Shown here one piece after another: positions 1,466-60,693 of a stretch of 64,000 nucleotides of DNA. A program made the position numbers and the translations under genes. The stretch spans positions 3,700,137 through 3,764,136 of the forward strand of contig NZ_CP046640.1 in the NCBI RefSeq assembly GCF_017751145.1, written 5' to 3'. Origin of the DNA: Iocasia fonsfrigidae (GTDB lineage Bacteria; Bacillota; Halanaerobiia; Halanaerobiales; DTU029). The notes beneath the pieces are model-generated. The model saw only the letters and a program-made list of their open reading frames with translations. It was not told the origin of the DNA and did not search any database. Position 1 is the first letter of the stretch. Every line of letters begins with the position of its first letter.

Positions 1466-2360
1466 ATTTCCACCTCTCCCGCAGACAATTTTTTAAATGG
1501 CAGGAAAATAAGTTGAAAATAGTAACCACAATAAATAAAAACAAGGCTACAAAAATTAAAGCAGACCTTTCTTCAGGAATAGACATCATCTCACCAAAAC
1601 TATTTACTATCAAACTCGGCAGGGTCTGGCCAGCTGAAAACAGCGAAGGAAAACTATTTTTTCCCCCAATTACCATTGCTACTGCCATTGTCTCACCAAA
1701 AGCCCTACCCAGGGCTAAAATAATAGCTGATACTATTCCCGGACCAGCCGCCTTTAATAATACCAGCTGAATCAGCTGCCAGTTAGTAGTCCCTAGTGAT
1801 AAGGTTTGTTCCTTTAACCCTAATGGTATTGCCCTAAGTGATTCTACTGTTAATGAAATAATAAGTGGAAAAATCATTACTGCTAGCACAACTGATGCTG
1901 TAAAAATACAACAACCAGTTGTTTTCACTCCCAAACAGGGACCTACATAATCTTTAACAAAGGGAACAAGAACAAGTAAAGCACATAAACCAAATACTAC
2001 TGAAGGAATACCAGCTAAGACATCTATAAAACCCTGCAGATATATTCTTATTCTACTTGAAGCATATTCGGCAATGTAGATAGCAGCCATAATAGATATC
2101 GGTACAGCAATAAGCATAGCCAACAATGTCACATAAAAGGTGCCTAAAATAGCAGGGGAAAACCCAAAAGTATAACTTTCGGGTTTCCACTGTGATGAGA
2201 ATAATAGGTCTATTGTAGATTGTTTGGTTAATATCAGGTAGGAGCTCTTGATCAACAAAGTAAAAATTGAAATAAAAAGCAAACAAACACTTATAACCAC
2301 TAACAACATTACTTTAGAACTTATTAGGTCTTTAAGCTGTCTAAAAGTAAATTTATTCAT
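1458..2360 (-). CDS. pstC: Phosphate ABC transporter permease PstC
   Basis: Second permease of the phosphate importer, 300 residues with about six membrane segments. Typical PstC features are IAEYASSRIRIYLQGFIDVLAGIPSV split over residues 92-120 and the coupling loop EQTLSLGTTNWQ...ALGRAFGETMAVAMVIGG. It lies 15 bp after pstS and overlaps pstA, so the four genes are almost certainly one transcript. Confidence 0.94.
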   Translation of the reverse strand: MNKFTFRQLKDLISSKVMLLVVISVCLLFISIFTLLIKSSYLILTKQSTIDLLFSSQWKPESYTFGFSPAILGTFYVTLLAMLIAVPISIMAAIYIAEYASSRIRIYLQGFIDVLAGIPSVVFGLCALLVLVPFVKDYVGPCLGVKTTGCCIFTASVVLAVMIFPLIISLTVESLRAIPLGLKEQTLSLGTTNWQLIQLVLLKAAGPGIVSAIILALGRAFGETMAVAMVIGGKNSFPSLFSAGQTLPSLIVNSFGEMMSIPEERSALIFVALFLFIVVTIFNLFSCHLKNCLRERWKYE

Positions 2361-31711: not shown

Positions 31712-32989
31712 TTATATTGTCGTGTTTTTATCTAATATGAATAAATTGCAAATACTATTAAAAATAAATTCATATTCATACCAACCTGCCCTTTGTAAGT
31801 GCTCAACTACTGTTGACCGGGATAGATTCATCTTTTCTTTGATCTGATTTTGGGTTAACCCCTTCTGTTTGTATCTCACAGCCAAACTCTGTTTGGGACT
31901 CCAGGATTTAATAATCTCAATAAATAGAGATAATACATGTGCATATAAATCATCTATAAAATTATTTGAAAATTTAATACCTAACTGCATTTTTTGTGAA
32001 AAACAACTAGCAAGTACTTCCCTGGCTCTATAAAAAGCAGTCCCATCCATACCAAGCGCTTCATTCCTAATTTTGGTTGCAATATCGCCAATCCCCAGGC
32101 CAGAATAAAGCCCCTGTAGTTCAATATATATATCTACTATTAAAGATAAAATTCTGTTAAATTTATCTTGTTCATTATAAAAAAGACCCTGAAATTCATA
32201 AAAATCATCATCCTCTGAAGACAGGGAAGTAAGGATAAGTTTTGACCTTATAATATCACTATATTCCTGGTTAATAGAGTTTAATAAATTCCGAACAACT
32301 CTTTCATCATTAGCTTTTGTAGGCCAGGCAGCTATCAAAGCTATATAAGTGCCTTTACAGATATCACTGCAGATTTTTATATACTGCTGCAGATTATAAA
32401 ATATTTCATTAGTTTTAAGCAGTAAGGCCCAGTTTATCTTTTTTAAAGACTGACTTATACTTGACTGTGATGTATCCAGTACAGCAGCAATCTCTTCCTG
32501 TGTTTTCCCCCTGGCTAACTGATAAATTATATATTTTTGCCTCCCATTATACTTAGCTAATATACTAAAATATAGATGTAAAAGCAGATTTATTATAAGT
32601 AGAGCCGTATCTCTGTTATTATCCATCAACAAATGCACTTTGAATTTATTTTTTTTAGCAGTATTGATTGCCTCAAGAGCATTTTTATATCCCTGACCCT
32701 TGTAATTATCAAACAGACCAGCCCCAAGACCATATCTAAGCTCAATGCCATTGAATTTAACATCCATATATTGTAATAAATCCAGCATCTGCTCATAGGA
32801 CTCTAAAACACCCACAAATTCATCACCCAGAGTAACTTTAAAAGGAACTCTAATTACTTCCCTGTATTTACTATTAACCTCATCTAACACGAAATTTAAT
32901 TTTTCCTGTACCTCTCTTCGATTCTCCAATTTCCTGGAATCAACTAAGTCTCCTATAATAACTACCTGCTGGTCCAGCAAAACAATCAT
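31712..32989 (-). CDS. SatD-family protein with internal tandem duplication and two HTH segments
   Basis: About 425 residues. The N-terminal half begins VVIIGDLVDSRKLENR (residues 9-24), then VTLGDEFVGVL (52-62) and ELRYGLGAG (83-91), the SatD-family layout. It ends with a helix-turn-helix (TQEEIAAVLDTSQSSISQSL). The second half repeats this plan: LSSEDDDFYEFQGLF, YSGLGIGDI, MDGTAFYRARE, then another HTH (TQNQIKEKMNLSRSTVVEHL). The acidic residues at 14, 17 and 56-57 recall the metal sites of GGDEF/cyclase palms; most are not kept in the second half. It is 7 bp after a DUF3307 membrane gene, its usual partner. The start is uncertain (ATG 32989 touches GGGGG; TTG 32980 is better spaced). Confidence 0.75.
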   Translation of the reverse strand: MIVLLDQQVVIIGDLVDSRKLENRREVQEKLNFVLDEVNSKYREVIRVPFKVTLGDEFVGVLESYEQMLDLLQYMDVKFNGIELRYGLGAGLFDNYKGQGYKNALEAINTAKKNKFKVHLLMDNNRDTALLIINLLLHLYFSILAKYNGRQKYIIYQLARGKTQEEIAAVLDTSQSSISQSLKKINWALLLKTNEIFYNLQQYIKICSDICKGTYIALIAAWPTKANDERVVRNLLNSINQEYSDIIRSKLILTSLSSEDDDFYEFQGLFYNEQDKFNRILSLIVDIYIELQGLYSGLGIGDIATKIRNEALGMDGTAFYRAREVLASCFSQKMQLGIKFSNNFIDDLYAHVLSLFIEIIKSWSPKQSLAVRYKQKGLTQNQIKEKMNLSRSTVVEHLQRAGWYEYEFIFNSICNLFILDKNTTI

Positions 32990-32996
32990 CCCCCAT

Positions 32997-33776
32997 TTAC
33001 CATAAATACTTAAATATATTAATTATACTCCCAGTTAGAACTGCCAGGAAAATACTTGTAATTGAACCTAATAAATAATATTCAACAAACCCTTCTCCCA
33101 CCTTTTTTTCTTCTATCTCTTTAAACCTAATTAAAGACTTGGCAGTAAATAAAAGCCCTATCAATGAATAGTTTTCTAAGATAACAAATAAAATAATTAA
33201 TAGCCTCTCTAAATTCCCGATCGCCTTGCCCTTACCAGCTTTATTATTAATATCACTCTTATACTTTTCCAGAACAGCCCTGGTAATAATAGTACTCCCC
33301 TTAAAATTAAAAATAACAACTGAGGCGGCAATCGTAATGAAAAATACCCTGGAAGTATTAAACACCCCTAACCATTGAAATATATCCTTAAGATCATTAT
33401 ACATTAAAGCAAGATATAAATTCCCCTGCAAAGTAAATAAGGGCACAGTTAATAAAATAACAAGTATATGTAATATCTGATCAACTATAAATATTTCCAA
33501 TTTATAATTCCCTGTTTTTGCTTTTCTTTCTGCTAGTTTCCAGGTTAAATATATTTTACAATAATCAATTATACCATGAAATAATGTAATTGTTAAAATA
33601 ACAAACAATAACTGCTCACTGAAATAATAAAAAGTCAAGATCAGTGAAGTCAAGAAAACAATCAACAAATGCTTCATTAGAGCCAAAAAAGACAGCTGTT
33701 TATTTTTACTTAGTTTCTCTGTCTGAAAGGAAAAATCAGCTAGTACATGAGCTAAAATAAGTAAAGAATAAGTCAT
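32997..33776 (-). CDS. DUF3307 integral membrane protein
   Basis: 259 residues with about six hydrophobic helices. The N-terminus SLLILAHVLADFSFQTEKLS is the DUF3307 signature (H-x2-A-D-F-x-F-Q), followed by LTFYYFSEQLLFVILTITLF and HGIIDYCKIYLTWKL. The ATG at 33776 with AAAGGGGG is preferred to a start 23 codons upstream. The gene directly precedes the SatD-like gene, a recurring pairing, so the two probably act together; the function is unknown. An 87-bp structured repeat ends about 50 bp before this start. Confidence 0.82.
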   Translation of the reverse strand: MTYSLLILAHVLADFSFQTEKLSKNKQLSFLALMKHLLIVFLTSLILTFYYFSEQLLFVILTITLFHGIIDYCKIYLTWKLAERKAKTGNYKLEIFIVDQILHILVILLTVPLFTLQGNLYLALMYNDLKDIFQWLGVFNTSRVFFITIAASVVIFNFKGSTIITRAVLEKYKSDINNKAGKGKAIGNLERLLIILFVILENYSLIGLLFTAKSLIRFKEIEEKKVGEGFVEYYLLGSITSIFLAVLTGSIINIFKYLW

Positions 33777-33826
33777 AAAAACCCCCTTTTTATTAACAAT
33801 GCCAGAAATTTTTTTTACAAAAAAGC

Positions 33827-33913
33827 AATTTATACTATACTTCACCAGTTCTCCATAAATACCTGCCAGAATATAGAAAATCTATCATAGAAATTAACTT
33901 CCCATGATAGATT
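33827..33913 (-). repeat. 87-bp conserved leader block with hairpin, copy 1
   Basis: Aligns without gaps to 48550-48636 with 15 mismatches. On the minus strand it begins with a stem AATCTATCAT/ATGATAGATT followed by TTTTCT and then a further ~45 conserved bases reaching to 50 bp before the DUF3307 start. Two stem pairs differ from the other copy by compensatory changes. Confidence 0.8.
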
Positions 33914-33946: not shown

Positions 33947-33971
33947 TGCCAAACGAACCGTCCCGGTGTCA
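33947..33971 (-). repeat. REP-like element, copy 4, overlapping a stop codon
   Basis: Minus strand TGACACCGGGACGGTTCGTT ending TGGCA. Its first TGA (33969-33971) is the stop codon of the M20 gene. Confidence 0.85.
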
Positions 33972-35282
33972 CGTAGTTTTATCAAAACTACTTAGTAAGT
34001 CGAGATATTCTTCCTTAGTCATAACAGCCTGATGGTTTTCAATAATTGTTGTTGCTCTATCTGCCTTATTATATAAGAGGTCAATTACGGTCATAGCCAT
34101 CGTTTTAGCTGGTATAATATAGGCTAATTCCTCATCTATAATCTTAAATTTACGGGTATGCAGGTCACCTTTTACTCCCCCAAAAAACGGATGGAGAGCT
34201 GGCATCAGGTGAGAGACATCCCCAAAATCAAAAGAACCCGCAAAAGAACTGCCCTGCTGGATTTCATCTCCTTTTAGAAAAGCACTTAAGTTCTCTAAAA
34301 GGAGATGATCTAACTCAGCCTTATTCAGAAGAGGCAGATAACCGGGTATATCTTTTATCTCTGCTTTGGCTCCAACAGCCATGGCCCCTGCTTGGATAGC
34401 CCTGTTTACTTTTTGATTGGCAGCAATGATTCCCTTAACTGTCCTTCCACGCACATAACTCTCCATTCTTACATCTGCCGGTATTATGTTTACAATATCT
34501 CCACCTTTAGTAATTATCGGATGAACCCTTATCTTTTCTTCATCTGGAAAGGTCTCCCTCTGGGCATGAATATTATTGATAGCCAGCATAGCGGCATTAA
34601 GGGCATTAACCCCTTCTTCTGGAGCAGAACCAGCATGTGATTCTTTACCTGTAAACTGCACCTTTTTACCAACAAAACCATTTCCCGTAGGACCCAGTAA
34701 GGCCTTAATTCCAGAATCACCAGGGTAGAGTGAATGGATCATCATCGCCATATCAACATCATCAAGTTCTCCCCGATAAATAAGCTCCTGTTTTCCTCCA
34801 AAGTATTTTATTTTCCCTTGTTCCCTGAGGTCATAGCGATATTCTAATTCGACATATTCCTCAGCCGGAACTGCCATAAACTTCACACTACCACTTAATT
34901 CTGAAAAAGCCCCTGACAGAACAAGGCCCAAAGCTGCCCCCAGCATTACCCCGGACTGGATATTATGCCCACAGGCATGAACTGCCCCGGTCTCTTGATC
35001 AGCATCAGGGTGTTCATGACATAAAATAGCATCCAGCTCACCCATAAACGCTATCCTGGGGCCAGGGTTTTCCCCAGCTACAGCACTACAACCTGTCACT
35101 GCTATATTTTTCTTCGGGACCAGTCCCAGGTCTTTAAATTCTTCATATAGCAAATCAGTAGCATACTTTTCTTTATAACCTAATTCCGGTTTATCATACA
35201 TCTTTTTTCCCAAAGCAATAATCCTGTCTCTCTTTTCATCAATAACCCTGACTACCTTTTTTTTAAGCTCTTCTTTTGGCAA
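33969..35282 (-). CDS. M20-family amidohydrolase
   Basis: Metal-dependent hydrolase of 437 residues that removes an acyl or aminoacyl group from its substrate, cytoplasmic. Family signs: GPRIAFMGELDAILCHEHPD, GAVHACGHNIQSGVMLGAAL (metal-binding His and His in H-A-C-G-H), VPAEEYVELEYR (catalytic Glu pair), FTGKESHAGSAPEEGVNALN, and DFGDVSHLMPALHPFFGGV near the C-terminus. It is closest in style to the AbgB/aminoacyl amidohydrolase branch (M20D). It follows two membrane-protein genes that probably transport its substrate. Its stop lies in a REP-like element. Confidence 0.88.
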   Translation of the reverse strand: MPKEELKKKVVRVIDEKRDRIIALGKKMYDKPELGYKEKYATDLLYEEFKDLGLVPKKNIAVTGCSAVAGENPGPRIAFMGELDAILCHEHPDADQETGAVHACGHNIQSGVMLGAALGLVLSGAFSELSGSVKFMAVPAEEYVELEYRYDLREQGKIKYFGGKQELIYRGELDDVDMAMMIHSLYPGDSGIKALLGPTGNGFVGKKVQFTGKESHAGSAPEEGVNALNAAMLAINNIHAQRETFPDEEKIRVHPIITKGGDIVNIIPADVRMESYVRGRTVKGIIAANQKVNRAIQAGAMAVGAKAEIKDIPGYLPLLNKAELDHLLLENLSAFLKGDEIQQGSSFAGSFDFGDVSHLMPALHPFFGGVKGDLHTRKFKIIDEELAYIIPAKTMAMTVIDLLYNKADRATTIIENHQAVMTKEEYLDLLSSFDKTT

Positions 35283-43712: not shown

Positions 43713-43770
43713 AGTATTTACCCAGCCTTTTAATTATTTATAACTTAAGCCCCTCCTATTATCTGTAACA

Positions 43771-43808
43771 ATTATACAATTATACCAAGCTTAAAGCAAA
43801 CCTGATTT
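43771..43808 (-). promoter_or_regulatory. Palindromic portable promoter, copy 1 (before the ROK gene)
   Basis: Minus strand TTGCTT (43794-43799), 17-bp spacer, TATAAT (43771-43776). It is the most diverged of four copies: the flanking palindrome is partly decayed (AGGTTTGC.../AAGCTTGG). Confidence 0.8.
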
Positions 43809-43821
43809 AGTGCCTTTGGTC

Positions 43822-43846
43822 TAACAAACAAACCATCCAGTGTTAT
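43822..43846 (-). repeat. REP-like element, copy 5 (diverged)
   Basis: Minus strand ATAACACTGGATGGTTTGTT then TGTTA; 4 bp after the permease stop codon and 14 bp before the portable promoter. Confidence 0.6.
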
Positions 43847-44929: not shown

Positions 44930-46756
44930 TTATTCCAGATATTTAATAATCTGGTTAATAAGAGTATCTGTAGCTTCTTCAATGGTATACTGGCTGGTAT
45001 CAATCTCAATATGGGGACTAACTGGCTTTTCATAGGGACTGGATATCCCAGTAAAGTTAGGGATTTCCCCTATCCTGGCCTTCTTATATAATCCCTTAAC
45101 ATCCCTTTTTTCACATTCTTCTAATGGGGTACTGACAAAGATTTCAATAAATTCTTCCCCAATGATTTCCCTGGCATTCTCCCTGTCTTTTTCATAAGGC
45201 GAAATGAAAGAAGTAATGGTAATAAGGCCAGCATCGTTCATCAATTTAGCAACCTCAGCAATCCTCCTAATGTTTTCAACACGGTCCAATTCCTTAAAAC
45301 CCAGATTCTTATTAAGACCGTGTCTGATATTATCACCATCTAAAAGCATGGTATGTTTACCCATAGCAAGCAGCCTTTTTTCTACTTCATTGGCCAGTGT
45401 CGATTTGCCTGAACCCGAGAGACCGGTAAACCAGAGAGTTAGTGGCTTCTGCCCTTTTTGTTCTGCCCTGATTTCCCTGCTAACATCGGTATTCTGCCAG
45501 ACAACATTAGTAGACCTCCTTAAAGGGTGTTCAATTATACCACAGGCTGAAGTCATATTACTGATTCTATCAATCAGTATAAAACCACCTAAGGCCTTGT
45601 TATTTTTGAATTTATCAAAAACCACCTTTTCAGCTAAAGAAATATCACATAAGGCCATTTCATTTTTAAAAAGCCGGTCTGCCGGAATACGTTTGCCTGT
45701 ATCAATATCAATCTTATGCTTAATATTCATAATCGTTGCCGGAAGGATCCTGGTACCTACTTTTATCAGGTAGTTCCGGCCAGCTACAAGGTCAATATCA
45801 TCCATCCAGAGTATGGTAGCTGTAAACATATCTGCTGGTTTAAGGTCTTTACCTTTAAGTAGAACACAACCCCTGGATACATCCACTTCCCGGTTAAGTT
45901 GAATGGTAACAGGTTGCCCAGAAGTAGCTGAATCGCTTTCCTGGTCTGTCACCAGGATACTCTTTACTCTGGCCTTTTCATTAGCAGGCAGGGTAGAGAG
46001 CTCATCCCCTACTGAAATCTGGCCTGACTCAATCTGGCCCTGGTAACCCCTGAAGGTATGATTGGGCCGGCTTACCCTCTGTACTGGCATTATAAAACTA
46101 TCCTTATCAACAATTTCTCTTACATCGATCTGTTCTAAGTAAGATAGTAAGGGAAGACCTTTATACCAGGAGGTATTAATAGATTTCTCTGTTATGTTAT
46201 CCCCTTCTGTAGCCGAAACAGGGATAAGCTCAATACTCTCTATATCAAAACTAGCAGTAAGCCTTAAAAACTCAGCCTTAATCTCTTCAAAACGATGTTT
46301 ATCATAATGGATTAGATCCATTTTATTAACAGCAAGGACAAAATGTTTGATTCCCATTAAAGAACAGATCCGGGTATGTCGCTTGGTCTGCACTAGCACT
46401 CCCTGGCTGGCATCTACCAGGATAACAGCCAAGTCAGCAAAAGAAGCCCCTACTGCCATATTCCGTGTGTACTGCTCATGTCCTGGGGTATCTGCCACTA
46501 TAAATGACCTATGGTCTGTCGTAAAATATCTATAGGCTACATCAATAGTAATCCCCTGTTCCCTTTCAGCCATTAACCCGTCCAGCAGAAGGGAATAGTC
46601 TATCTCACCCTCTCTACTACCAACCTTACTATCCAGTTCTAAGGCCTTCTCCTGATCAGCAAATAGTAATTTGGCATCATAGAGCATATGTCCAATCAAG
46701 GTAGATTTGCCGTCATCTACACTCCCACAGGTAATAAACTTCAGTAAGCTCTTCAT
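44930..46756 (-). CDS. cysNC: Sulfate adenylyltransferase GTPase subunit fused to APS kinase (CysN-CysC)
   Basis: 608 residues. Residues 1-420 are CysN: GTPase loop GSVDDGKSTLIG, switch region REQGITIDVAYRYF, DTPGHEQYTRN, NKMDL, then two beta-barrel domains. Residues 430-608 are APS kinase: Walker A GLSGSGKST, LLDGDNIRHGLNKNLGF, ADAGLITITS-like NDAGLITITSFISPYEKDRE, and FTGISSPYEKP. With CysD it makes APS and then PAPS from sulfate, ATP and GTP. The start follows the cysD stop by one base. A second, separate APS kinase exists at 21629-22243. Confidence 0.95.
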   Translation of the reverse strand: MKSLLKFITCGSVDDGKSTLIGHMLYDAKLLFADQEKALELDSKVGSREGEIDYSLLLDGLMAEREQGITIDVAYRYFTTDHRSFIVADTPGHEQYTRNMAVGASFADLAVILVDASQGVLVQTKRHTRICSLMGIKHFVLAVNKMDLIHYDKHRFEEIKAEFLRLTASFDIESIELIPVSATEGDNITEKSINTSWYKGLPLLSYLEQIDVREIVDKDSFIMPVQRVSRPNHTFRGYQGQIESGQISVGDELSTLPANEKARVKSILVTDQESDSATSGQPVTIQLNREVDVSRGCVLLKGKDLKPADMFTATILWMDDIDLVAGRNYLIKVGTRILPATIMNIKHKIDIDTGKRIPADRLFKNEMALCDISLAEKVVFDKFKNNKALGGFILIDRISNMTSACGIIEHPLRRSTNVVWQNTDVSREIRAEQKGQKPLTLWFTGLSGSGKSTLANEVEKRLLAMGKHTMLLDGDNIRHGLNKNLGFKELDRVENIRRIAEVAKLMNDAGLITITSFISPYEKDRENAREIIGEEFIEIFVSTPLEECEKRDVKGLYKKARIGEIPNFTGISSPYEKPVSPHIEIDTSQYTIEEATDTLINQIIKYLE

Positions 46757-46757
46757 C

Positions 46758-47657
46758 TTAGAAATACCCCTCCCTCTTACGCCTTTCCATACTGGCAGCT
46801 TCTTCCTGATCGATTACCCGGCTAGTTCTTTCAGAGGAAACAGCACCCAGGGTTTCTGCTATAATCTTATCCAGGGTATCTGCTTCTGATTCCACACCAC
46901 CAGTCAGAGGGTAACAGCCGAGGGTTCTAAAACGAACTTTTTTTATAACTACCTCTTCCCCTGCTAAAAACCTCATTCTATCATCATCTACCATAATAAT
47001 ATTTCCGTCACGATAGACTACCGGTCTTTCTTTAGCAAAATACAGGGGGACGATATCGATGTTTTCTCTCCTGATATATTGCCAGATATCTTTTTCAGTC
47101 CAGTTTGAGAGAGGAAAAACCCTTATACTCTCACCTTTGTTAATTCTGGTGTTATAAAGTTTCCACATTTCAGGGCGCTGGTTCTTTGGGTCCCAGGCAT
47201 GGGCAGAATTCCTAAAAGAAAAAATCCTTTCTTTAGCCCTGGATTTCTCTTCATCCCTTCTACCCCCACCAAAGGCAGCTGTAAAACCATATTTATCGAG
47301 GCCCTGTTTTAAGGCCTGGGTTTTCATAATATCTGTATAGGCAGGACCATGGTCAAAGGGGTTAATTCCCTTTGCAACACCTTCCATATTGGTATGGACA
47401 ATCATTTCAATACCTAATTCCTCTGCCTTTCTATCCCTGAACTCTATCATCTCCCTAAACTTCCAGGTAGTATCAACATGCATAAAGGGAAAAGGTGGTT
47501 TTTCAGGGTAAAAGGCCTTCATGGCCAGGTGTAACATCACAGAGCTGTCTTTCCCGATACTATAAAGCATTACTGGTTTCTCACATTCTGCAGCAACTTC
47601 CCTAATGATATAGATCGCTTCGGCTTCAAGCTGATCAAGGTGTGTTAGGTTATTCAT
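46758..47657 (-). CDS. cysD: Sulfate adenylyltransferase subunit 2 (CysD)
   Basis: 299 residues, PP-loop ATP pyrophosphatase subunit of ATP sulfurylase. Motifs: [20 protein letters not shown] (PP-loop SxGKDS) near residue 30, [20 protein letters not shown] near residue 130, and [20 protein letters not shown]. First enzyme gene of the sulfate-activating operon cysD-cysNC-permease; transcription probably starts at the portable promoter 47719-47747. No APS/PAPS reductase or sulfite reductase gene is in the window. Confidence 0.95.
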
Positions 47658-47717
47658 TTCATATACGTCCTCCTCATGCCTATTCCACTATTATATCTAT
47701 TAATCCATCTCTTTTCT

Positions 47718-47757
47718 AATTATACAATTATACCAGGCCTAAAGCAAGCCTGGCTAA
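47718..47757 (-). promoter_or_regulatory. Palindromic portable promoter, copy 2 (before cysD)
   Basis: Minus strand TTGCTT (47742-47747), 17-bp spacer, TATAAT (47719-47724), within the palindrome CCAGGC...GCCTGG. Nearly identical to 55881-55920. Confidence 0.85.
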
Positions 47758-47766
47758 CCTCCACTG

Positions 47767-47791
47767 TGACAAACAAACCATCCCGGCATCA
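47767..47791 (-). repeat. REP-like element, copy 6
   Basis: Minus strand TGATGCCGGGATGGTTTGTT then TGTCA; begins 2 bp after the stop codon at 47794 and lies 9 bp from the portable promoter. Confidence 0.75.
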
Positions 47792-47793
47792 TA

Positions 47794-48165
47794 TTATGCT
47801 ATAAATAGTGGATACTCCAGTGAACCTTCTTCAATTAATGAACCCTGTTGGTCAAAGAGATTGACCCTTATGCGGTAATTACCTTCTTTAGTAAAACTTA
47901 TCCCTGCAAATAGATTGTGATGGGTATGGGCCAGTTTTATCATAAAAAGGTCTGACTGTGAAGAACTTACTATCTCACCATCCCTGATAAGCTCAGTCAC
48001 CTGAAAGAACCCATCTATCAGTTCATCATTAGTATCCCAGACCCATTTATTGACAACATAAAAATTTGGTGCCCTCCCCGCTGTAAAACCATGTATAATG
48101 TTTTTAAAACCAGACCTTTCATCTTTTTGACAGATAAGGGAATACTGTAACTTAAGCCTGTCCAT
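47794..48165 (-). CDS. Hypothetical soluble protein
   Basis: 123 residues from the ATG at 48165. No membrane segment or known motif. The composition suggests a beta-rich domain: NIIHGFTAGRAPNFYVVNKW, DGFFQVTELIRDGEIVSSSQ, THHNLFAGISFTKEGNYRIR, VNLFDQQGSLIEEGSLEYPL. It begins inside the last codons of the upstream membrane-protein gene, so the two are co-translated. A link to the sulfate operon that follows is positional only, because a REP element and a new promoter lie between. Confidence 0.65.
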   Translation of the reverse strand: MDRLKLQYSLICQKDERSGFKNIIHGFTAGRAPNFYVVNKWVWDTNDELIDGFFQVTELIRDGEIVSSSQSDLFMIKLAHTHHNLFAGISFTKEGNYRIRVNLFDQQGSLIEEGSLEYPLFIA

Positions 48166-48502
48166 TATTATCACCAACCTTAACTACAGCTGCCTCATCC
48201 CGGGCCAAACTGGCTTCACTAATACTATGGTCATGTTTAAAGAGCTCATCCTGTACACTGGGGTCATAGTCAGAAGGATTAAAGAGCCAGCGGGGTTCTT
48301 TTAAAACAAGAAAAATCAAAACAAAAACCATAGCAAGTGAAAATATAAGAGCAATACCTACCACTGCGTAAAGTAAAATCACTAATAACTCATCATGCCC
48401 CTTTAAGGGCCACAGGCTGGCTGCCAGGGCTGTTTCAATCCAGACCAGGTAAAACCCAACCATCTGCAGAGGACTCTTAATAAATTTAAAAGTATCTTTC
48501 AT
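48152..48502 (-). CDS. Hypothetical small membrane protein
   Basis: 116 residues with two likely membrane helices (MVGFYLVWIETALAASLWPL and LLYAVVGIALIFSLAMVFVL) and a charged, acidic C-terminal tail. No family recognised. The start has AGAGGAG. It overlaps the next gene, suggesting a two-protein unit with a membrane and a soluble part. An 87-bp structured block identical in layout to that before the DUF3307 gene ends 48 bp before this start. Confidence 0.65.
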   Translation of the reverse strand: MKDTFKFIKSPLQMVGFYLVWIETALAASLWPLKGHDELLVILLYAVVGIALIFSLAMVFVLIFLVLKEPRWLFNPSDYDPSVQDELFKHDHSISEASLARDEAAVVKVGDNNGQA

Positions 48503-48549: not shown

Positions 48550-48636
48550 AATTTATAGTATAATTCACCAATCCTCCGCAAATTCCTGCCAGAATATAGA
48601 AAATCCACCATAGGAACTAGATTCCCATGGTGGATT
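48550..48636 (-). repeat. 87-bp conserved leader block with hairpin, copy 2
   Basis: Gap-free match (72 of 87 bases) to 33827-33913. Stem AATCCACCAT/ATGGTGGATT followed by TTTTCT on the minus strand; two of its pairs are C-G where the other copy has T-A. Confidence 0.8.
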
Positions 48637-48642
48637 AGATTG

Positions 48643-48667
48643 TGACAAGAAATCATCCCGGTGACAC
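48643..48667 (-). repeat. REP-like element, copy 7
   Basis: Minus strand GTGTCACCGGGATGATTTCT then TGTCA. It lies between the 87-bp block and the epimerase remnant, the same order as at 33.9 kb. Confidence 0.65.
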
Positions 48668-48669
48668 GT

Positions 48670-48765
48670 TAGTTTTAACCCTTGACGGAATTTTTTTAGA
48701 TTGGTCTTAAGATTCAAATCTTTAAATATACTGGAAGTTCCGGCTACTAGAATATCCGCTCCGGC
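48670..48765 (-). pseudogene. C-terminal remnant of a ribulose-phosphate 3-epimerase-like gene
   Basis: On the minus strand, starting straight after an in-frame TAA, codons give AGADILVAGTSSIFKDLNLK then TNLKKFRQGLKL. This resembles the last strand and helix of pentulose- or hexulose-phosphate 3-epimerases, where G-A-D-x-x-V-x-G-(T/S) binds phosphate. No start or N-terminal part is present, and only 12 bp separate it from the SDR stop. A deletion probably removed the rest. It fits a sugar operon with the RbsABC-like importer. Confidence 0.65.
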
Positions 48766-48777
48766 TTATAATAACTA

Positions 48778-49560
48778 TCAATAAATAGTATAGCCGCCAT
48801 CAATAATCATAGTATTACCAGTCATAAAACTGGAGGCTTCGGATGCTAAATAAACAGCTGCACCTTGAAGTTCTTCAGGCTGTCCCATGCGTTTCATAGG
48901 AGTAGGGGTTATCCAATATTTCCTGGTTATTTCTGGCTTATTCTGTACATCTTCTTTAGTCATCTCAGTTGCCATATAACCAGGGGCTATAGCATTGACC
49001 CTAATACCTGCTGTTGCCCATTCTGCTGCTAGAGACTTTGTTAAATGAATAACCCCGGCTTTAGAAGCATTATAAGAAGACTGAGCCTGTGGATAGTTGA
49101 CAATATAAGCAGACATAGAAGCCATATTGATAATCGAACCCTTCTGTTGATTCCCTAACATATAGAGAGCTACTAGCTTTGAACATAAAAAGACAGCAGT
49201 TAAATTGATATCCACTACCTCCTGCCAGTCTTCCAGGATCATATCTTCTGCTGCTATATGTTTACAAATACCAGCATTATTGACCAGAATATCTACCTGA
49301 CCAAACTGTTCCAGTACTTCTGCTAACATCATTTTAAGCTGATCTTCTTTAGTTACATCAGCCTGGCAGGCCAGTGTTTCTACACCAATCTCTGCTATCT
49401 CCTGGGCCGTTTTACTGCCCTTTTCATAATTTTTATCTACAATTACTATCCTGGCTCCTGCTTCAGCCATTCCCTTAGCTATTGATTTACCTAAACCCTG
49501 AGCTGCTCCAGTTATAATTGCCACCTTATTATTTAAGCGAAATTTATCCAATACACTCAT
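48778..49560 (-). CDS. SDR-family oxidoreductase
   Basis: NAD(P)-dependent classical short-chain dehydrogenase, 260 residues. TGAAQGLGKSIAKGMAEAGA binds the cofactor, NNAGICK stabilises the fold, and S-x-Y-x3-K is in SMSAYIVNYPQAQSSYNASK. The C-terminus has the usual GNTMIIDGGYTIY. Gene order behind an RbsABC-like importer and beside an epimerase fragment suggests polyol or sugar-acid oxidation; a gluconate 5-dehydrogenase-like role is possible but unproven. Confidence 0.88.
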   Translation of the reverse strand: MSVLDKFRLNNKVAIITGAAQGLGKSIAKGMAEAGARIVIVDKNYEKGSKTAQEIAEIGVETLACQADVTKEDQLKMMLAEVLEQFGQVDILVNNAGICKHIAAEDMILEDWQEVVDINLTAVFLCSKLVALYMLGNQQKGSIINMASMSAYIVNYPQAQSSYNASKAGVIHLTKSLAAEWATAGIRVNAIAPGYMATEMTKEDVQNKPEITRKYWITPTPMKRMGQPEELQGAAVYLASEASSFMTGNTMIIDGGYTIY

Positions 49561-54130: not shown

Positions 54131-54149
54131 AGTAACCGTCCCGGTGTCA
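54131..54149 (-). repeat. REP-like element, copy 8, overlapping a stop codon
   Basis: Minus strand TGACACCGGGACGGTTACT. Its TGA (54147-54149) is the stop codon of the AAA/nuclease gene. Confidence 0.7.
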
Positions 54150-55838
54150 TATTATCAATTCATATTCATCTTTACCAATAAAAATTAATAAAGCCTGTTT
54201 AATATTATCTTTATCCTCAAACTTACGGCTGGCTGCATATCTCTCTAATTGCTTTAATCCCTCTTGTTTAACCTCTGCTAACTTATCCCGCTCACTCTTC
54301 TTTAAGTATTTTAATTCTATGATCCACTCATATTTGACATCTGGCATCCGTATATCCCGTTCCAGATAGATGTCTATATATCCATTTTCTACCTCTGTTT
54401 CACTATATGGTTTATAGGCCTTACTGTCCACCAGATAGGCAAAGAGAATTACTTTGATATACCTTTCATCATAATTTATCAGATCACGATTAGAAAAGGC
54501 TTTAAAGACATGATTGTTTATATAGTCTATATATGGTTCAATCTCACCTTCATAGGCCATTTCTTCAATTGACTTCCTGAGTTCATTGAGGTCTAAGTTG
54601 ATTTGATATTCTTCTGATATTTTTTTCTCAATATATTCCCAGAAGATTGTTTTTACTACAAAATTGGGTATTTTTAAGAGGAGCCTGGTTCTATACTGCT
54701 TATCTATTGTCAACAAACCCATATAAAATAAGAGTGAGACAAAATAGTCTTCATCATACATCATATCAAAGGAAAAACGGGTAATAATATCGGCCACTAT
54801 CCCTTCTTCGATAATAATATCTTCCAGCACCTCCCGGTTGGCCTCATTGGCTACCAGTCTATTTAGCCTGCCGTAATCTGTCCGGACATTATCATCTATC
54901 AACTGGTCAGGGTAGTCCCCTGTCATTAGCCACTGGCTAAAGAAATGCAGAATCATATCCGGGTTATAGACCCGTTCCCTGCTGTCTTTGTTAAATAGAT
55001 AGCCATTATAGTTCTTTCTTAATTCAGACAATAACTCCTCTTTATTTAAATCTATATTTAACTCTTCTATTATTCCCTTTACTTCTTTTTCAGTAAAACC
55101 CAACATTTCATTAAACAGTTTATTCATAGTAATATTGCTAGCAATATTAAAACCACTGGTCAAATCATCTAACATAACTGGTGATATACCGGTTATAAAA
55201 ACACGGTCAATCACACTTTCTGTACCTATTTTGACTGTTTCATAAAAATCCCGAACAAAACCTGTCGCCCTGATTACTTCTTTATAGAAATCACTGTCCC
55301 CCATAGCAATAATATCATTGGCAAAATGGTCATATTCATCTATAATTAAGTATACTTTTTGACCTGCGTCTTTCACCTTCTCAATATAAAAGTTTAAAAT
55401 AGATTTTACATCTTCTAATTCCTCTAATTTATTAACTATATCCTGATAGTTTATAAACAAAGCTCTATATTTAGATAAACTAGCTATAACCGCCTGCCTG
55501 ATAGTTTCCTTAAAAGAGAGGTATAACTTTTCTTTACTATCGGTATTTAAACCTGAAAAATTAAATTTTAAGATTAGATAACTTGTTTTTAGTTCAGTAG
55601 GGTTTTTCCCAATATATAAGCTTTCAAATAATTCATCAAACTCCTCTTTATTATTCAAATCATAATAATTAGCAAGGGTGGATAAAAAAAGGCTCTTACC
55701 GAATCTACGCGGACGAATAAAAAATAAATATTTACTCCCTATCCCTTCTAAGCTAGAAATATAATTAGTCTTATCAACATATAAATAACTTTCTTTTCTT
55801 AATGATTTAAAATCAGATATCCCATAAGGTATCTTCAT
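54147..55838 (-). CDS. AAA-ATPase / PD-(D/E)XK nuclease family protein (DUF1703 type)
   Basis: 563 residues from the ATG at 55838, which has GAGGGGG; the longer ORF from 55880 begins at the -10 region of its promoter and is unlikely. N-terminal AAA-ATPase-like part: IPYGISDFKSLRKESYLYVD, Walker A RPRRFGKSLF (about residues 42-51), Walker B VYLIIDEYDHF, sensor VFITGISPVML. The C-terminal domain is a PD-(D/E)XK nuclease: NGYIDIYLERD, then YEWIIELKYLK with catalytic E-x-K. This family occurs in many near-identical copies in anaerobes; its role (mobile-element or defence related) is not established. A partial, IS-disrupted second copy follows at 56717-60344. Confidence 0.88.
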   Translation of the reverse strand: MKIPYGISDFKSLRKESYLYVDKTNYISSLEGIGSKYLFFIRPRRFGKSLFLSTLANYYDLNNKEEFDELFESLYIGKNPTELKTSYLILKFNFSGLNTDSKEKLYLSFKETIRQAVIASLSKYRALFINYQDIVNKLEELEDVKSILNFYIEKVKDAGQKVYLIIDEYDHFANDIIAMGDSDFYKEVIRATGFVRDFYETVKIGTESVIDRVFITGISPVMLDDLTSGFNIASNITMNKLFNEMLGFTEKEVKGIIEELNIDLNKEELLSELRKNYNGYLFNKDSRERVYNPDMILHFFSQWLMTGDYPDQLIDDNVRTDYGRLNRLVANEANREVLEDIIIEEGIVADIITRFSFDMMYDEDYFVSLLFYMGLLTIDKQYRTRLLLKIPNFVVKTIFWEYIEKKISEEYQINLDLNELRKSIEEMAYEGEIEPYIDYINNHVFKAFSNRDLINYDERYIKVILFAYLVDSKAYKPYSETEVENGYIDIYLERDIRMPDVKYEWIIELKYLKKSERDKLAEVKQEGLKQLERYAASRKFEDKDNIKQALLIFIGKDEYELII

Positions 55839-55880
55839 CCACATATCCCCCTCATAAAAGCTAAACTTAGTCTCTGTCAT

Positions 55881-55920
55881 AATTATACAATTATACCAGG
55901 CCTAAAGCAAGCCTGGCTAA
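55881..55920 (-). promoter_or_regulatory. Palindromic portable promoter, copy 3 (before the AAA/nuclease gene)
   Basis: TTGCTT (55905-55910), 17-bp spacer, TATAAT (55882-55887) on the minus strand, with CCAGGC/GCCTGG arms. The -10 hexamer ends 44 bp before the chosen start codon. Confidence 0.85.
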
Positions 55921-55942
55921 TCTTCTAATTGATAAATACGTA

Positions 55943-56665
55943 TCACAGAATAAATATTTGCAGTGGACTATCAATAATAATCTCTGATCTGCCTTTATAT
56001 TCCACAACCTTACCGGTGACCTTAATCTCTTTTTCCAGTAACAATTCCAGGGGATTATAATCAAATTTGTTAAGATTATGTTTAAATATAATTAGATATA
56101 AGTTATCTTTTCCTTCCTTGCTAAAGTCCAGAAAGATAATCTTCTCTGACTGATAGGTCTTTACCACCTTACCCCTAACTATAACCTCTTTATTTAAATA
56201 ATCTGCTGCCTCTTTCAGCTCTGCTGCATATTTTAAATTAGGTGGTACCAAGAGGAGACTGGCATATCCTTCCTCTAATAGTTTTCTATTAAAAAAACTC
56301 CCGTCTGCCAAAAAGAGATAGGCCAGGATACGATTATATTTATCCCTTTTCTCCTGGTCATATTCCAGATAGACATTATGTCCCAATAACTTTTTCTTGG
56401 TGTATTCAAAGGCCTCCCGGGCATAAAACTCTGCCTCCCCCTCTTCCCAGTTCATCTCAGGGGTATCCAGTCCAATCAACCTGATTCTTTCACCATCAGC
56501 TGTCCTGACAGTATCACCATCATAGACATAGTCAATAAAAACCCTGTCCAGTCCTTGCAGTCCCACAGAATCTGATTCAAAATCATTCTCTGCAAATAAA
56601 ACCAGACCACCCAGGCATATCATTATCAAAAATACTATTAACAATAATTTTTTCTTCATAATCAT
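55943..56665 (-). CDS. Secreted thermonuclease-like protein with C-terminal OB-type domain
   Basis: 240 residues. A signal peptide or anchor (KKKLLLIVFLIMICLGGLVL) is followed by a staphylococcal-nuclease domain: DYVYDGDTVRTADGERIRLI, GLDTPEM, YDQEKRDKYNRILAYLFLAD and NRKLLEEGYAS. The catalytic residues equivalent to Asp21, Arg35, Asp40, Glu43 and Arg87 of the S. aureus enzyme are present. Instead of the usual helical end, the last ~80 residues (NKEVIVRGKVVKTYQSEKII; KEIKVTGKVVEYKGRSEIII) look like an OB-fold nucleic-acid-binding domain. It lies between the two AAA/nuclease copies and is read in the same direction. Confidence 0.83.
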   Translation of the reverse strand: MIMKKKLLLIVFLIMICLGGLVLFAENDFESDSVGLQGLDRVFIDYVYDGDTVRTADGERIRLIGLDTPEMNWEEGEAEFYAREAFEYTKKKLLGHNVYLEYDQEKRDKYNRILAYLFLADGSFFNRKLLEEGYASLLLVPPNLKYAAELKEAADYLNKEVIVRGKVVKTYQSEKIIFLDFSKEGKDNLYLIIFKHNLNKFDYNPLELLLEKEIKVTGKVVEYKGRSEIIIDSPLQIFIL

Positions 56666-56702
56666 TCACCCTAGAATCAAACACCTATTTTGATAGACAT
56701 TC

Positions 56703-56719
56703 ACACCGTCCCGGTATCA
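56703..56719 (-). repeat. REP-like element, copy 9, overlapping a stop codon
   Basis: Minus strand TGATACCGGGACGGTGT; its TGA (56717-56719) is the stop of the second AAA/nuclease copy, exactly as at 54147-54149. Confidence 0.65.
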
Positions 56720-57778
56720 TACTATCAATTCATATTCATCTTTACCAATAAAGATTAATAAAGCCTGTTTAATATTATCTTTATTCTTAAACTTATGACT
56801 GGCTGCATATCTTGCTAACTGCTTTAGTCCCCCTCTCTTAACCTCTGCCAATTTATCCTGTTCATTCTTCTTTAAATACTTTAATTCTATAATCCATTCA
56901 TACTTGACATCTGGCATCCGTATATCCCGTTCCAGATAGATATCTATATAGCCATTCTCTACTTCTGTTTCACTTACAGGACGGTAGAGATTACTGGTAA
57001 CCAAATAGGAAAACAAAACTAACTTTATATACTTTTCATCAAAAAAATTAATCAAATCACGGTTAGATAGCTTCTGTAGTACATTCTCACTGATATATGA
57101 CAGAAAGGGCTCTATCTCCCCATCAAATCCCATCTGCCAGATAGACTTAGCCATCTCTTCTACATCATAAGATATTTGATATTGATTTTTTAATCTGCGC
57201 TCAAAATACTCCCAGAAGATAACCCGTGTCACATGATTGGGTATCTCCAATCTGGTTTTGCCATACCTTATCTCTCCAATTGTCAATAAACCCATATAAA
57301 ATAAGAGTGAGACAAAATAGTCTTCATCATACATCATATCAAAGGAAAAACGGGTAATAATATCAGCTACTATCCCTTCTTCGATAATAATATCTTCCAG
57401 AACCTCCCGGTTAGCCTCATTAGCTACCAGTCTATTTAACCTGCCGTAATCTGTCCGAACATTATCATCTATCAACTGGTCAGGGTAATCCCCAGTCATC
57501 AACCATTGACTAAAAAAATGCAGAACCATATCCGGGTTGTAGACTCGTTCTCTGCTGTCTTTGTTAAAGAGATAACCATTATAGTTCTTCCTTAACTCAA
57601 ATAATAATTCCTCTTTATTTAGATCAATGTCTATAGCCAGCTTTTTTATGATACCCCTTACTTCTTTCTCAGTAAAACCCAACATTTCATTAAACAGTTT
57701 ATTCATGGTTATATTGCTAGCAATATTAAAACCACTGGTCAAATCATCTAACATAACTGGTGATATACCGGTTATAAA
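56717..57778 (-). pseudogene. Second AAA/nuclease copy, C-terminal fragment
   Basis: Reads from TTT-ATA-ACC-GGT (FITGISPVML) through the nuclease domain (YEWIIELKYLKKNEQDK) to the stop, about 353 codons, and is very close to residues 214-563 of the gene at 54147-55838. At 57778 coding stops at the left end of an IS66 element. The segment matching roughly residues 26-213, with Walker A and B, is missing from the window. An internal ATG at 57754 could give a 345-residue product without ATPase motifs, but no promoter was seen for it. Confidence 0.85.
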
Positions 57779-57828
57779 GTAAGCGTCAAAACGTCCCCAC
57801 CTGGAAAAATTGAGGACATTATGATAGG

Positions 57829-60344: not shown

Positions 60345-60386
60345 CCACATATCCCCCTCATAAATTCTAAACTTAGTCTCTGTCAT

Positions 60387-60426
60387 AATTATACAATTAT
60401 ACCAGGCTTAAAGCAAGCCTGGTATA
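60387..60426 (-). promoter_or_regulatory. Palindromic portable promoter, copy 4 (before the broken AAA/nuclease copy)
   Basis: TTGCTT (60411-60416), 17-bp spacer, TATAAT (60388-60393) on the minus strand. The palindrome is perfect here: ATACCAGGCTT and AAGCCTGGTAT. Its outer edge coincides with the truncation point of a GHMP kinase gene. Confidence 0.85.
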
Positions 60427-60693
60427 AAATGTGTCAGGTATCATCTCCGGGACATTATCTATATGGAAGTATTCTTCATCAGGAAAGTCCAGGCTCTGAA
60501 CCCGGATATATCCATCATCATTAGCAGCAAAGACCATATCAACACTGGAATCAAGAGCCATCCCGGTAACCAATCCCTCCTGATGGTCAACATGAGCCCC
60601 CAGGGGGCAAATACGCAGTGGAGATCTAGCCAATTTAATATCCCCAACATTATCTTGATATCTTTTCTTAAATTTTTTAAATAAACTTTCCAT
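60427..60693 (-). pseudogene. Truncated galactokinase-like GHMP kinase (N-terminal fragment)
   Basis: From the ATG at 60693 about 88 codons are kinase-like: the substrate-binding start LARSPLRICPLGAHVDHQEG followed by LVTGMALDSSVDMVFAANDD, as in galactokinase-type GHMP kinases. The frame then enters the portable-promoter repeat and stops at 60397. The ATP-binding loop (P-x-G-x-G-L-S-S-S) and the remaining ~270 residues are absent. The gene follows two glycosyltransferases in the same direction, so it once belonged to the polysaccharide cluster. Confidence 0.8.

Follow-up and report, generated by a model that had tools for sequence, protein, structure and literature searches.

Two 87-bp intergenic blocks of the Iocasia fonsfrigidae genome each appear to form the boundary between two transcription units, with a terminator followed by a sigma-H promoter, and the two copies probably derive from one ancestral intergenic stretch that was set before an unrelated operon. 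We estimate the probability of this reading at about 80%. Both blocks lie within the 64,000 nucleotides that were analysed (the window, positions 3,700,137-3,764,136 of the contig), in which they form repeat family D7.

The two copies aligned without gaps and differed at 15 positions, giving 72/87 identical bases (83% identity) as the earlier note on this DNA had reported. A search of the whole 3.93-Mb genome (single contig, 3,926,493 bases) matched copy 1 with copy 2 at E = 1.8e-19. These were the only two full matches to the 87-mer in the genome, and the next best match, with an E-value of 4.5e-5, covered the hairpin part alone. The covariance-model search that the earlier note had proposed was run on the whole genome with the 15-bp stem; it recovered the two copies at 119.4 and 116.8 bits and no further full-length ones. 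The next match, 31.1 bits at genome position 3109776 (L003), was a lone hairpin with a similar stem and without the tail, and was taken as another terminator. In the 37 other genomes of the order no 87-bp block was found with blastn (38 genomes, the own genome giving the sole match). A 22-nt match in genome G027, obtained in a search of 31 genomes, lay by eye within a coding sequence and was taken as chance.

Table 1. Features of the two loci, given in window positions.
Feature	Position	Strand	Basis
Copy 1 of the 87-bp block (predicted terminator hairpin and promoter tail)	33827..33913	-	alignment, genome search, repeat family
Copy 2 of the 87-bp block	48550..48636	-	alignment, genome search, repeat family
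Copy 1 hairpin: 15-bp stem, 5-nt loop, then TTCTATATTC (stem ends in TT); behind M20 peptidase gene	33879..33913	-	terminator scan, fold
Copy 2 hairpin: 15-16 bp, then TTCTATATTC (stem ends in TT)	48602..48636	-	terminator scan, fold
Copy 1 sigma-H-like promoter (predicted), TGGCAGGTATT-N11-GGTGAAGTATA; two departures	33836..33868	-	PWM rank 2 in window
Copy 2 sigma-H promoter (predicted), TGGCAGGAATT-N11-GGTGAATTATA; 0 mismatches to RNAGGAWWW-N11-RNNGAATWW	48559..48591	-	PWM rank 1 in window
Copy 1 REP-like core, GTGACACCGGGACG; overlaps M20 gene stop codon	33959..33972	-	sequence, core search
Copy 2 REP-like core, GTGTCACCGGGATG	48654..48667	-	sequence, core search
Upstream gene 1, M20-family peptidase	33969..35282	-	Pfam
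Downstream gene 1, DUF3307 membrane protein, start 33776	32997..33776	-	Pfam
SatD-family gene, after DUF3307 gene	31712-32989	-	Pfam
Upstream gene 2, short-chain dehydrogenase	48778..49560	-	Pfam
Downstream gene 2, 116-aa membrane protein, start 48502; heads gene run	48152..48502	-	ORF list
127-aa protein, in run of 116-aa gene	47794-48177	-	ORF list
PAPS_reduct-domain protein, CysD-like	46758-47657	-	Pfam
GTPase/APS-kinase fusion, CysN/C-like	44930-46756	-	Pfam

According to the ORF calls, the genes on either side of both blocks are all encoded on the minus strand. Thus the hairpin and its T-run come first, and the conserved stretch of about 50 bp lies nearest the gene. The blocks had been described as sitting about 50 bp before the starts of membrane-protein genes; this distance agreed with the start codons of both genes, but the orientation needed correction, the hairpin being on the far side from the gene. 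In minus-strand order the copy 1 locus comprises the M20 peptidase gene, the REP-like core, the hairpin, the tail, the DUF3307 gene and the SatD-family gene. At copy 2 the order is short-chain dehydrogenase gene, REP-like core, hairpin, tail and then the genes for the 116-aa membrane protein, the 127-aa protein, the PAPS_reduct-domain protein and the GTPase/APS-kinase fusion, the last two of which resemble CysD and CysN/C. The flanking coding sequences of the two copies belong to different Pfam families. Between the short-chain dehydrogenase gene and copy 2, an open frame (AGADILVAGTSSIFK..., window 48655-48755, minus strand) resembled, on inspection by eye, the end of a sugar-phosphate epimerase gene. 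The suspicion that a remnant of ribulose-phosphate epimerase stands there was dropped, Pfam giving no match for the 33 residues.

Both strands of the block can fold, the minus strand more stably. The 87 nt of the minus strand reached -23.9 kcal/mol (z -3.8) in copy 1 and -29.8 kcal/mol (z -4.1) in copy 2. The terminator scan returned one match per locus, on the minus strand only, and these were the same hairpins with their T-rich tails; at copy 1 the one hit compared with a shuffle mean of 0.1. A stable hairpin followed by a T-run, as expected of a Rho-independent terminator, was thus present at both copies, and would end transcription coming from the M20 peptidase or the short-chain dehydrogenase gene. 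The blocks share with such terminators a GC-containing 15-pair hairpin and a T-run directly behind co-oriented genes. Unlike ordinary terminators they have a long AT-rich stem, are homologous at two places together with a putative promoter behind the hairpin, and carry a short T-run (TTTTC), which speaks against our reading.

Among the 30 stem positions five differences were found. Four of them lie in two pairs with compensating changes from T-A to C-G, and the fifth changes G.U to G-C, so that 15/15 pairs stay standard in both copies. The two compensated pairs had been noticed before in a stem described as 10 bp long; the pairing was confirmed, whereas the stem comprises 15 pairs on the minus strand. 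In simulations all pairs survived in 0.17% of the trials with random substitutions and in 9.4% of those with transitions only, and the observed changes were transitions only. As evidence the compensation is suggestive, short of overwhelming.

The survival rate under transitions also suits the view that the block is a decayed, functionless short mobile repeat associated with REP, its pairing kept by self-correcting palindromes or by the young age of a copy. The genome is indeed rich in dispersed repeats, the sample yielding 440 pairs of similar intergenic sequences, and a REP-like core precedes both copies, as the earlier note had observed. This explanation nevertheless appeared improbable to us, because the genome holds two copies only, each between co-oriented genes and about 50 bp before a start codon, and because a good promoter motif is present. 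The cores ahead of the two blocks were the only two exact occurrences of GTGWCACCGGGAYG in the 854 kb examined, and they are therefore probably part of the copied stretch; the extended REP pattern, allowing up to 3 mismatches, gave 9 sites in the same 854 kb. The arrangement resembles REP-like intergenic repeats in having this core before both blocks and degenerate relatives elsewhere in the window, but the REP itself lies outside the 87-bp block.

Other repeats were noted in the window. Family D3 has four intergenic copies (43760-43825, 47708-47773, 55871-55936 and 60377-60442), each with a hairpin CCAGGC..GCCTGG beside a TATAATTGTATAATTA-like stretch, and one of them lies between the genes for the 127-aa and the CysD-like protein. 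A second shared unit of the terminator/operator-promoter kind may be present here. At 54135-57800, adjacent segments of 160-300 nt (families D1, D2 and D5) are repeated at a spacing of 2.57 kb with 85-93% identity, looking like a tandem gene duplication.

In sigma-H promoters the -35 and -10 boxes are spaced by 11-12 nt. The tail of copy 2, TGGCAGGAATTTGCGGAGGATTGGTGAATTATA, contained an exact fit to the sigma-H (Spo0H) promoter of Firmicutes, GCAGGAATT-N11-GGTGAAT, in the -35 box, the 11-nt spacing and the -10 box. One report gives the boxes as RNAGGAWWW and RNNGAATWW (PMC8510167); this consensus was matched by copy 2 and, taken strictly, was not matched by copy 1, which departs at one fixed position in each box (-35 A to T, AGGT for AGGA; -10 T to G, GAAG for GAAT). 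For this reason copy 1 may be weak or dead as a promoter, and its departures weigh against our reading. The distance from the start of the site to the start codon was 92 nt for copy 1 and 89 nt for copy 2; as with the other motif sites, a co-oriented gene follows at a short distance. The genome itself encodes sigma-H (L013), identified by TIGR02859 with 333.6 bits at a cut-off of 294.8. A second sigma-H-like sigma factor at genome positions 567110-567682 (L014) scored 199.2 bits with the same model, below the cut-off. Since the sigma-H motif is supported in the own genome, the additional 45 bp or so conserved beyond the hairpin are most likely the promoter of the next operon. A combined terminator/promoter unit had been considered possible, and a search of the conserved tail for an unusual sigma-factor promoter had been advised; the non-housekeeping site of sigma-H type behind a terminator hairpin supports both suggestions. 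We infer the termination, the dependence on sigma-H, the start point and the continued activity of copy 1 from the sequence.

A sigma-54 promoter (TGGCAG...TTGC in copy 2) was compared by eye with the sigma-54 consensus and rejected, the spacing being one short and copy 1 lacking the GC. The tail could also be a housekeeping sigma-A promoter with a -10 box TATACT/TATAGT or TATAAA, the likeness to sigma-H being accidental, and TATA(C/G)TATAAATT, kept in both copies, could serve as such a box. A scan of the minus strand, however, found no site of sigma-70 type in the tail of copy 1 or of copy 2. What it did find, one plus-strand site (33814-33841) and two minus-strand sites outside the tail (33952-33923 and 33653-33624), was within the shuffle expectation, and a weight matrix (PWM) built without copy 2 scored this copy as the best sigma-H site in the window. 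We consider a sigma-A promoter unlikely.

To learn whether the motif carries meaning in this genome, the pattern GCAGGAWTT-N11/12-GNNGAAT was followed through it, where it matched 8 times vs 0 for the reversed control. All eight sites (8/8) were located 66-208 nt ahead of a same-strand ORF; of all strand positions, 6.6% fall 60-215 nt ahead of one. The seven besides copy 2 precede genes for a polysaccharide synthesis enzyme, a YcgR-type PilZ protein, YajC, ThiT, an amidohydrolase, the anaerobic ribonucleotide reductase and a DJ-1/PfpI protein. A narrower pattern gave one match, copy 2. The pattern GGCAGGAATTT-N9-12-GNNGAAT was matched 7 times vs 0 in the control when 49 genomes of the class were searched; 6/7 matches were outside long ORFs and one (L063) was within a gene. 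We had expected the exact motif to be abundant in GTDB genomes, but a longer pattern gave 10 matches in the whole collection, 4 of them just upstream of genes, for SpoVS (L067), HIT, S30AE/HPF and DivIVA (L075). This rarity, 8 sites in 3.93 Mb, 7 in the 49 class genomes and 10 in the collection, counts against our reading.

In other genomes the sigma-H motif was found ahead of spoVS (L067), S30AE/HPF (L062, L073) and divIVA (L075). In B. subtilis hpf/yvyD is under sigma-H control. For B. thuringiensis, spoVS is described as sigma-H dependent in one report (PMC8510167). The own genome (L119) and a second genus of the family (G001, L065) both have the motif followed by a TPP riboswitch and thiT, which suggests a conserved sigma-H control of thiamine uptake. 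Around 1501-1528 (minus strand) of locus L122, before the DJ-1/PfpI gene, a sigma-H motif comes immediately after a strong hairpin of the terminator type (CCTCCATTACTG...CAGTAATGGAGGGGTTTTTATA). This is a second terminator and sigma-H unit with the arrangement of the 87-bp block and an unrelated hairpin sequence.

Training of the weight matrix used 16 sites and left out copies 1 and 2 as well as six of the GTDB matches (L066, L068, L069, L071, L072 and L074) and the in-gene L063. Copy 2 scored highest in the window (31.6) and copy 1 second (21.6). Of the 3,154,800 placements scored in 790 kb of the sample, 0 reached the score of copy 2 and 2 that of copy 1. The scores at the fixed positions are partly circular, because the training sites were picked by pattern, and the high score of copy 1 is no independent evidence since it is inherited by homology. 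The placement of sites relative to ORFs is free of this circularity and served as an independent test. At scores of at least 17, 11/14 placements in the 790 kb, one training site among the 14, had a same-strand ORF starting 40-250 nt downstream, with 0 in the reversed control; at scores of at least 15 it was 15/20, with 4 in the reversed control.

The compensated stem changes and the conservation past the hairpin could also point to a regulatory RNA or leader that acts in cis, its hairpin being transcribed with the downstream gene and regulating it; the earlier note had allowed for a regulatory RNA. Structured cis-regulatory RNAs are recognized by a known family or by covariation over many homologues, and the blocks showed neither. 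No Rfam family was matched at the gathering score, the sub-threshold matches (STnc150, E 0.23; MIR7994, E 0.0025 and 26.4 of the 100 bits needed) were read as chance likeness of hairpins, and the covariance model yielded no homologues beyond the two copies in the genome. The two operons do not share a function. At both copies the promoter motif is positioned between hairpin and gene, which would explain the tail. The transcript would then start near the end of the block, past the hairpin, and with the hairpin outside the downstream transcript no leader RNA is needed to account for the conserved tail. We concluded that a regulatory RNA is very unlikely.

As to the origin of the two copies, a recent duplication of a larger region was not seen, the likeness ending at the borders of the intergenic regions or close to them. 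When these regions were freely aligned over their whole length, a weak likeness of the two loci reached down to the start codon. Five orthologues from five relatives, with the best E-values among those found, two of the 116-aa gene (L040, L041) and three of the DUF3307 gene (L045, L046, L047), had no comparable sigma-H site in the 350 nt upstream (best PWM scores 9.7, 9.9, -3.6, 2.0 and 7.5, against 31.6 and 21.6 here). Together with the REP core and the different flanking families, these orthologues led us to the view that a boundary of terminator and promoter was copied in this lineage. An old dispersed duplication, i.e. promoter capture, fits best with the sequences compared. Each block would then be the boundary between two co-oriented minus-strand transcription units. 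The upstream transcripts, from the M20 peptidase or the short-chain dehydrogenase gene, would end at the hairpin with its T-run, and RNA polymerase with sigma-H would start about 55 nt before the next gene, from the conserved 50 bp or so behind the hairpin. When the ancestral intergenic stretch was copied ahead of a second, unrelated operon, which may thereby have come under the same sigma factor, the copied part probably included the REP-like element and may have extended through the leader as far as the start codon.

A bolder version, in which REP, terminator and sigma-H promoter move as one unit linked to the REP, we regard as unlikely. If true, such a mobile cassette would insulate its new site from upstream read-through, bring the operon behind it under the control of a stress/sporulation sigma factor and act as a natural regulon-recruiting module. 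Neither DUF3307/SatD nor a membrane protein with CysD/CysNC-like genes is known to be among the classical sigma-H targets. Within Halanaerobiales, one survey includes four Halobacteroidaceae genomes, and none of them is listed there as spore-forming (PMC3533761). The parts of the block are known and ordinary and their assembly is mildly unusual; the modest surprise lies in the duplication of the whole boundary and in the identity of the operons served. The two blocks would provide a concrete case of an operon joining an alternative-sigma regulon via a copied terminator-promoter boundary, and the analysis yields GCAGGAWTT-N11/12-GNNGAAT as a working motif for sigma-H in a Halanaerobiales genome.
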